Below, one piece after another: positions 16,918 to 25,846 of a stretch of DNA of 64,000 bases. How positions within the stretch are numbered: the stretch's first letter is position 1; each line of letters opens with the position of its first letter. The translations under genes were made by a program, and so were the position numbers. The notes under the pieces are model-generated. The model had not been told where the DNA came from. It searched no databases and was given only the letters and a program-made list of their open reading frames with translations. Source of the DNA: Peribacillus simplex (GTDB taxonomy: Bacteria; Bacillota; Bacilli; Bacillales; DSM-1321); the NCBI RefSeq assembly GCF_900156045.1, contig NZ_FTMX01000002.1, positions 1 through 64,000 of the forward strand, in the 5' to 3' direction.

Positions 16918-17457
16918 CTATTCGTCTTCGAATTCATCAAGGAAATCCGGATCTAAATCTTCGAAATCCTCATCATCGAAATCAGAGCCCCAGTCATCCT
17001 CACAGCGGCCATCTGGACTAACAGCGACACAAATTTTCGTTTCGCCGACGACTTCCACAAAGAATTCCCTTTCCACATGGACAATGATTTTTTGTCCACA
17101 TGGGGAGATGCAAGCTTCTAAACAATTCGGCTGTTGGACAGCTTTTGCAACTATTTCATGGTCATCAAGACAATCGGGATCACGGTATTTCAGCGAAATA
17201 ACGTCGGTATATTGCACTTTTTCAGTTACAACTTCCGTCTTCGAATTTTGGTTATAAGAATACCAGACGTTGATTTCGTAGCTGCCGTGAATTTCTACCT
17301 TTTTGCCGACTTTCTTTGCATCGTATTTATGGTTGATGATCCAACAACCTAGAATGCTAGAAGGATGATGAGCCGGGCAAATGGTGTGAGAGGACTTTGT
17401 GAATTTACGTCCTTTTGCCACCACCGCTTTAGTAATTATCTCTCTATATTGTGACAT
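16918..17457 (-). CDS. cotE: Outer spore coat morphogenetic protein CotE
   Basis: A 179-residue CotE. The N-terminus [19 protein letters not shown] is characteristic. A long middle domain includes the conserved [11 protein letters not shown] segment, and the last 30 residues are almost all Asp, Glu and Phe (very acidic tail), as in the family. CotE assembles as a ring around the forespore and recruits most outer coat proteins. The N-terminal part drives oligomerisation and the C-terminal part client binding. The start has GGAGG 11 bases upstream. Two sporulation-type promoters are visible upstream. Its place between ymcA and mutS is the usual Bacillus order. Confidence 0.96.
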
Positions 17458-21026: not shown

Positions 21027-21256
21027 GTACATTCCCCCTGAAATAGGGCTGCTCTCTTCATCTACCTTAATATGTAAAGATATGAAAAATGAATCACAAA
21101 AATACCATAATCGCTTTTGTACCGGCCTTTTCACATTAATAATGATGATTTTTAGGGCGTTCGTACATTTTTGTTAAATGGGGCATGTTTCTATAGCATC
21201 TCGTCCACTCTCGAATAAGATATCTTGTACAACAAAATTATTAAGGAGTGACTTAT

Positions 21257-21589
21257 ATGTCATGTGGATGCAATAATCACGATCATCATGATCGGGACCG
21301 CGACCGGGACAGAGATAACGATAGAATCGCAAATGATTTTTGTCGTGCTGTAAGGGGCTGCAATAGGCGCGACCGCGATCGGCACCACGATCGGGACCGC
21401 GATCGGGATAACGATAGAATCGCAGACGATTTTTGTCGTGCTGTGAGAGGCTGTAATAGGCGCGACCGCGACCGCGATCGGGACCGGGATCGCGACCGGG
21501 ATCGTGACCGGGATCGCCACCGCCATTGTCGCAGAAGGAATCGTTGCAATCTCTTCTCATTCGGCTGTGGATGCAATAACGGTTTTTAA
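21257..21589 (+). CDS. Arg/Asp-repeat, Cys-rich protein, possible spore coat protein
   Basis: A 110-residue protein of very unusual composition. It begins MSCGCNNHDHHDRD and ends SFGCGCNNGF, with Cys pairs at both ends. Between them are two tandem 31-residue units (residues 21-51 and 52-82), each NDRIA(N/D)DFCRAVRGCNRR followed by alternating Asp-Arg; the second Arg-Asp run extends to about residue 87 and grades into RHRHCRRRNRC. The DNA period is 93 bases. AAGGAG lies 8 bases before the ATG, and a 15-bp terminator stem follows. MSCG(C) starts and Cys-rich ends resemble CotY/CotZ/ExsY-type spore surface proteins, but no family can be assigned. GC content is well above that of its neighbours because of the GAC/CGC/GAT/CGG codons. 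Long antisense frames here are by-products of the repeat. Confidence 0.7.
   Translation: MSCGCNNHDHHDRDRDRDRDNDRIANDFCRAVRGCNRRDRDRHHDRDRDRDNDRIADDFCRAVRGCNRRDRDRDRDRDRDRDRDRDRHRHCRRRNRCNLFSFGCGCNNGF
21311..21500 (+). repeat. 93-bp tandem repeat and GAC-CGN repeat tract
   Basis: Two 93-base units start at about 21314 and 21407 (GATAACGATAGAATCGCA in both), followed by a stretch of alternating Asp and Arg codons to about 21520. The two units differ at only a few positions. It encodes the repeat region of the Arg/Asp protein and is likely to vary in copy number. Confidence 0.75.
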
Positions 21590-21647: not shown

Positions 21648-21681
21648 AAAAGGTTCACCCCTCTTAAGGGGTGAACCTTTT
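21648..21681. terminator. Bidirectional terminator between the repeat gene and korB
   Basis: AAAAGGTTCACCCCT and AGGGGTGAACCTTTT form a perfect 15-bp stem with a 4-base loop, T-rich on the plus side (TTTTAATTTTTT) and A-rich on the other side. It serves both converging genes. Confidence 0.88.
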
Positions 21682-25585: not shown

Positions 25586-25846
25586 TTATCTTGGTTCAAT
25601 GATTAGTTTTATTGCCGTTCTCTCTTCGCCATCAATAAGTATATCTGTAAAGGCAGGAATACAAATCAAGTCGACTCCACTAGGTGCGACAAACCCTCTC
25701 GCGATTGCTACTGCCTTGACGGCTTGATTTAACGCACCTGCACCGATTGCTTGAATTTCGGCTGCTCCTCTTTCCCTGAGCACTCCCGCTAGTGCGCCTG
25801 CTACAGAATTAGGATTAGATTTTGCTGAAACTTTTAATATTTCCAT
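25586..25846 (-). CDS. spoVS: Stage V sporulation protein S
   Basis: An 86-residue SpoVS, a small Alba-like nucleic-acid-binding protein that is almost invariant in spore formers. It starts MEILKVSAKSNPNSVAGALAG and has the GAGALNQAVKAVAIARGFV core. Mutants are blocked in spore coat/cortex stages and affect septation timing. AAGGAGG is 7 bases upstream of the ATG. It lies between ymdB and the dipeptidase gene, its usual location next to rny-ymdB. Confidence 0.97.
   Translation of the reverse strand: MEILKVSAKSNPNSVAGALAGVLRERGAAEIQAIGAGALNQAVKAVAIARGFVAPSGVDLICIPAFTDILIDGEERTAIKLIIEPR

Follow-up and report, generated by a model that had tools for sequence, protein, structure and literature searches.

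The gene considered here lies within the window (the whole 64-kb stretch of DNA that was analysed) in a neighbourhood where the open reading frames (ORFs) between 16 and 27 kb are, as we take them to be, mutS, cotE (16918-17457), a ymcA-like gene, miaB and threonine dehydrogenase, followed by ORF 21257-21589 and, downstream of it, by what presumably are korB, korA, a dipeptidase gene, spoVS (25586-25846), ymdB and rny. According to its translation, ORF 21257-21589 on the forward strand encodes a protein of 110 aa that starts with MSCGCNNHDHHD, ends with CRRRNRCNLFSFGCGCNNGF and comprises two 31-residue units, a run of (Arg-Asp)9 and 10 Cys. The features assigned to the locus are the following.

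21195-21222, forward strand: putative sigma-K-type promoter AGC-N16-AATAAGATA with internal element CGTCC (29-gene upstream alignment; weak 6/8 score)
21243-21248, forward strand: ribosome-binding site AAGGAG before ATG 21257 (sequence; aligned upstream regions)
21257-21589, forward strand: ORF with N-cap MSCGC, two units with core [D/N]DFCRAVRGCNRRD, (RD)n linker and C-cap CRRRNRC...FGCGCNNGF (translation, repeats, homologs, coding test)
21317-21373, forward strand: core copy 1, NDRIANDFCRAVRGCNRRD (profile match)
21410-21466, forward strand: core copy 2, NDRIADDFCRAVRGCNRRD (profile match)
21461-21514, forward strand: longest unbroken linker run, (Arg-Asp)9 (run count)
21648-21681, both strands: terminator-like hairpin of 15 pairs, common to convergent korB (terminator listing)

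Most of what the initial annotation had read from the letters of the gene itself was recovered. Its two 31-residue tandem units correspond to a 93-bp repeat (31 codons, 2.3 copies, 80% matches) detected by Tandem Repeats Finder, which found shorter units, of 12 and 24 bp, in the RD run as well; its long alternating Asp-Arg tract is the (Arg-Asp)9 run, and in all six frames of the 64-kb window there are two (R/K)(D/E) runs of at least four pairs, both inside this ORF. The proposed GC-rich tract in AT-richer DNA is evident from GC contents of 73% in the terminal RD tract, 54% in the ORF and 41% in the window, and the good ribosome site is the AAGGAG preceding the start codon. Two further statements need amendment: the terminator ascribed to the gene exists as a 15-pair hairpin, but is listed on both strands and is therefore common to convergent korB, and Cys residues do close both ends of the protein, but not the ends only, as four of the ten are found in mid-protein as a C-x5-C pair, one per repeat. 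Each repeat contains the core [D/N]DFCRAVRGC, the first copy reading NDFCRAV. Net charge of the protein is +7, Ser and Thr together account for 2 of the 110 residues, and the longest His run does not exceed 2.

Homologs at the korB locus and the variable linker

Comparison of genomes reveals homologs of this gene in which the anchors, the locus and a promoter-like element are conserved and the linker is variable. A core-bearing homolog adjoins korB in 23 of 36 Peribacillus genomes. The family profile matches 22 of the 36 at E 0.001, the best match lying no more than 0.4 kb from korB in 22 of 22, while the 23rd core-bearing genome (G021) was found by position beside korB, not by profile, among the 11 genomes with korB but without a profile match that were inspected at the locus (G021 and 10 others). 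An additional weak profile match of 18 residues is located away from the korB locus in G006. Seven congeners (G004, G014, G015, G018, G019, G043, and G051) carry at this place a different hydrophilic Cys-containing ORF devoid of the core; its C-terminus is Arg-rich and ends with WF or WI in five of the seven, and net charge ranges from +5 to -18, three ORFs being strongly acidic (-9, -15, and -18), so that near-neutrality is restricted to the core-bearing form. In three genomes of the 36 (G002, G003, and G023) korB is present and no locus ORF was recognised, the corresponding loci (L087, L081, and L085) containing no recognisable hydrophilic Cys-capped ORF, which looks like apparent loss or extreme divergence; in three more (G008, G009, and G044) the korB search gave no korB match, and the gene thus seems to be dispensable within the genus. 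Search for plasmid copies of the gene gave no match. Two side observations concern korB and its vicinity: a 454-aa ORF, presumably transposase-like, is situated between the locus gene and korB in G015 (L080), suggesting insertion of a mobile element into this intergenic region, and the window's own genome has a second korB-like gene, 78% identical (G000:C8:14682-15539).

As judged from these homologs, ORF 21257-21589 is a real conserved gene under selection. Counted over 25 copies of the core (the motif employed excluded 4 further ones of greater divergence, in L013, L037, and L079), minor alleles number 17 at the first codon position, 10 at the second and 71 at the third, and this excess at the third position points to coding and to purifying selection on the core. 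In the RD runs, Arg is encoded by six different codons and Asp by two. Frames are open in all 23 core-bearing homologs; the TAA inside one G001 match is that protein's own earlier stop, two of the proteins (L002 and L033) stop before the last Cys pair, and those of L010 and L019 are identical. Of the findings which, according to the initial annotation, would speak against the gene, absence of any homolog and random stop codons in close relatives, neither was made: homologs do exist, and the 23 with the core are open. Antisense ORFs overlap the gene, and the frame of one of them (21174-21560) has no stops across it in 18 of the 23 homologs, which might be taken to mean that ORF 21257-21589 arose as junk from a GC-rich repeat and yields no product. 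Such an origin is highly improbable in view of the 23 open homologs with their third-position bias, the codon-position test already contradicting it, the conservation of the ribosome site and promoter element, and the existence of relatives without the long RD repeat. The antisense frame sharing its third positions with forward position 3 is interrupted by stops in 23 of 23 homologs, and the remaining antisense frame in 21 of 23. As to the 21174-21560 frame, it was rejected as the selected one since its third positions fall on forward position 2, the least variable of the three.

Besides the core, aligned homologs keep a Cys close to the N-terminus and an aromatic C-terminus rich in Cys and Arg, and the tract between core and C-cap passes in the 23 homologs from pure RD through RD with His to mostly Asn. 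Composition of the same proteins is confined to a net charge of +2 to +8, a charged fraction of 0.25-0.58, 9-19% of hydrophobic residues, 8-14 Cys and 1-5 Ser/Thr. Variation of linker chemistry at steady net charge argues that exact charge alternation would not be the conserved property. The gel or condensate formed by alternating charge, which the initial annotation put forward, is consequently unlikely as the essential function, since in orthologs Asn and His tracts take the place of much of the RD tract, and hydrophilic spacing would fit better. As to the suggested comparison of repeat number in relatives, the core is present twice in 6 of the 23 homologs, and in G047, labelled as the same species, the protein has 120 aa instead of 110 and more RD. 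Duplication has taken place on more than one occasion, since in G011, as well as in G264 from the sister genus, flanks distinct from those of the others surround the duplicated unit.

Amino acid content of this kind invites two further explanations. Cys pairs together with His and Asp tracts could chelate metal ions, so that the product might be a metal-binding or metal-storing protein of spores or of the stress response; the 8-14 Cys mentioned above, His runs of 6-8 residues in 9 of the 23 homologs and CCC in several of them speak for this. Nevertheless, His runs of the window protein never exceed two residues and no metallothionein family scored above cut-off, the only one to appear being MymT (E 0.88, for a core-less locus ORF), and we regard such a role as improbable. 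A small, Cys-rich, variable product of low complexity may also resemble the precursor of a RiPP or bacteriocin with a Cys-rich core, though hardly any credit can be given to this idea, since both ends and the core are conserved and no modification or export gene was recognised among the ORFs at 16-27 kb, as we presume their identities.

Relatives in other genera and the upstream element

The window protein matches no Pfam family at E up to 10, and its NCBIfam matches, limited to SdrD (E 0.24) and ClfB (E 0.39), fall far short of the cut-off; seven relatives and locus ORFs likewise gave no Pfam or NCBIfam match near cut-off, the relatives' profile matched no solved structure, and no description or family name of this protein was found in the literature as judged from listings. 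The initial remark that no family is recognised holds in this sense for Pfam and NCBIfam, but relatives do exist in other genera, and the window protein, which contains the [D/E]DFCRAVxxC-type core twice, is by its sequence a member of a small-protein family marked by this core and not an orphan. Searches for relatives covered the genus, the order and the class, and beyond the class two named-genome pattern scans. One named-genome pattern scan had P. frigoritolerans FJAT-2396 as the only one among the matches listed, and another gave no match.

A profile derived from Peribacillus cores alone (A5) finds short ORFs in other genera: of 299 genomes of the order, 4 that do not belong to the genus gave matches, with E from 2.9e-5 to 4.8e-4 per genome (about 0.15 expected at the weakest E, by arithmetic), one of the four belonging to the sister genus. 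With the joint profile, matches at E 0.003 were obtained in 22 of the 397 genomes of the order, of which 17 are outside the genus, and in 9 of 11 genomes of one other genus. The relatives' profile (A4) matched 4 of 398 genomes of the class-wide sample, where the window gene was not recovered at E 0.001, and all three genomes of the sister genus. Twenty measured relatives are 61-114 aa long. They share with the window protein the core motif, Cys residues and an Arg-rich aromatic C-terminus, and many have a sigma-K-like promoter; in most of them the ends are rich in Cys/Arg and Trp/Phe. Unlike the window protein, most possess NNVAGxSD-type repeats and, ahead of the core, an F(R/K)VxV(R/K)AxI-type stretch, with no long RD or Asn tracts. 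In the sister genus the family gene is convergent with korB in 3 of 3 genomes, which connects the RD protein with the family by position, without recourse to sequence, and intermediate forms occur there, namely RDDRRDDRRDDRRDDRRRRCCWSWI and a core unit repeated twice with RDRDRD. Two nearby DFCRAV profile matches were met both in G139 (L105/L121), where two tandem genes are read, and in G028 (L110/L120), where one gene is read, and in G137 (L109), which belongs to another genus, the family gene sits between a response-regulator gene, presumably spo0A-like, and another one that we take to be glycerophosphodiesterase-like.

Upstream of the start codon, at a similar distance, every one of the 30 locus genes, with or without the core, carries the loose element GTC[C/A/T]-N6..9-TA-N3-T[A/G] or a tighter version of it, a count that is descriptive as the pattern was written after viewing the 29-gene upstream alignment. 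Its typical form is TTGTCC-N7-[C/A]ATANNNTA; TTGTCC occurs in most orthologs, the window copy reads CGTCC, and a similar element precedes the core-less locus ORFs of the seven congeners. Outside the genus a TTGTCC-type element is present in 8 of the 20 relatives and absent from 12, and was seen by eye in the sister genus. The strict pattern TTGTCC-N8-ATANNATA gave 4 matches in 5 whole genomes versus 10 for the reversed-pattern control; two of the four are upstream of a locus gene (G011 and G015), one is inside an ORF of the window's genome, and the window copy does not match. Being that rare, the element was discarded as a marker of a large regulon. The GerE site, scored with the consensus RWWTRGGYNNYY, was rejected as well: 20 of the 30 locus genes reach 11 of 12 positions, but so do 37% of shuffles (3% reach 12), and the exact word RWWTRGGY is absent from the window copy.

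The element resembles promoters of late mother-cell (sigma-K) genes, best in the relatives and weakly in the window copy. When AC-N15..17-CATANNNTA was scored within 100 bp, 8 of 8 positions were found in 9 of the 20 relatives from other genera (1.4% of shuffles), and the 30 locus genes distributed as 2 with 8 of 8, 9 with 7 and 19 with 6 (0.6%, 11%, and 56% of shuffles, respectively), the scored genes being related to each other and the trials not independent. The window copy, AGC-N16-AATAAGATA, has 6 of 8, a score that 75% of its 40 shuffles equal or exceed. For comparison, the sigma-K consensus is described as consisting of a -35 block of five bases and a -10 block of ten, with a gap of 14-16 between them (PMC517825), and bclA and bclB of B. 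thuringiensis, as reported in PMC4750369, have sigK-dependent, 16-nt-spaced SigK-like promoters, that of bclB (AGC-N16-CATATAATT) agreeing with the window copy in -35 letters and in spacing. Comparative data thereby suggest late mother-cell expression, with good ground for the family and less for the window copy. The weak match of this copy would be compatible with a forespore or vegetative protein of stress or desiccation rather than a surface one, and so would a very hydrophilic, charge-balanced composition, given that hydrophilin-like proteins act as desiccation protectants. This assignment nonetheless has a low probability in our estimation, because the promoter of relatives matches the sigma-K type (the one type scored) and the Cys-rich Arg/aromatic caps are unlike those we associate with hydrophilins.

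Probable role at the spore surface and comparison with known coat proteins

Taken together, the sigma-K-like promoter in relatives, the Cys-rich ends and the fast-evolving modular build make spore coat or exosporium the best-supported placement that sequences suggest, and this part of the initial interpretation may be retained on account of the promoter and ends, whereas an essential role of alternating charge is unlikely, as the alternation is not conserved. We consider it reasonably probable that the gene is expressed late in the mother cell and that its product is a small structural protein of the outer spore layers, be it coat, crust or exosporium, which is probably disordered and serves as a spacer between anchors. 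The course of events that we infer, including expression time, location, crosslinking, disorder and function, is as follows. In the mother cell, RNA polymerase with sigma-K would transcribe the gene. The caps at the N- and C-terminus, with their Cys, Arg and aromatic residues, and the DFCRAVxxC core may bind one another or further proteins of the surface, and Cys content suggests that disulfides could fix this anchoring once oxidised. The hydrophilic, nearly charge-balanced tract might then act as a spacer that separates the anchors and lets the mesh stay hydrated and permeable. It would grow by slippage on DNA repeats and turn over between RD, Asn, and His because mainly its length and hydrophilicity matter.

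A broader reading, conceivable yet doubtful, regards this as one spore-surface locus where promoter and position are kept and the product is almost completely renewed, its proteins being interchangeable tethers and the RD version forming a zwitterionic and strongly hydrated layer on the spore that is antifouling. Turnover would in that case occur because selection sees the physical properties, i.e., hydrophilic, disordered and capped by Cys, Arg and aromatic residues, and not the sequence. Only tentatively can the tether series which this broader reading supposes in related species be arranged as RD polyampholyte, poly-Asn, poly-His, acidic and mixed-charge. Be that as it may, the window gene is real, conserved and fast-evolving and probably encodes a spore-surface spacer. 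It illustrates how a protein that looks like an orphan because of its unusual RD repeat can turn out to be a rapidly evolving ortholog of a small protein of ordinary kind. Low-complexity proteins of the spore coat have sequences that defeat homology search, and position, promoter element and a short core make one such protein traceable across genera. A comparative set is ready for asking whether length, charge pattern or chemistry of the tether sets spore permeability.

Among known surface proteins, CotY, CotZ, and ExsY are Cys-rich components of crust and exosporium with a short MSC-type N-terminus and many Cys, and the window protein is similar in both respects. It differs from them in that no Pfam or NCBIfam profile of CotY/CotZ/ExsY, or of another curated family, matches it. 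One of the three genes, exsY, is described as sigK-dependent in B. thuringiensis (PMC4750369).

A parallel in architecture is offered by CotG, also small and modular with central repeats between the ends (PMC9765600), and central tandem repeats between conserved ends are found in the window protein. Identity with CotG is ruled out by charge, Ser content, gene position and a separate CotG-like ORF. Most CotG-like proteins have a strong positive net charge, and they are Ser-rich substrates of the CotH kinase. Net charge is +57 in CotG, according to PMC9765600, and +2 to +8 in the 23 core-bearing homologs, which moreover have only 1-5 Ser/Thr and no repeated CotH phosphorylation sites. The window protein is Cys-rich, has the DFCRAVxxC core, and its gene is not beside cotH: the best CotH match (C15:424531-425457) is about 400 kb away and is itself adjoined by the CotG-like ORF (L136:3751-4212, forward strand, contig C15 of the window's genome G000) with RRTSRRRST repeats and the N-terminus VDRANSFGLGDFMHNDPC. 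Two more CotH-domain genes, one of them seen as two matches, are located elsewhere in the same genome. As presented in PMC9765600, deletion of the central CotG repeats, but not their replacement, affects lysozyme resistance and germination, effects attributed, probably, to permeability; the repeats are spacers between interacting ends and arise by gene elongation, and no homology links the CotG-like proteins of one species to those of another. By analogy, the window protein fits the logic of CotG, with its ends and core as likely anchors and the hydrophilic tract between them as a replaceable spacer.
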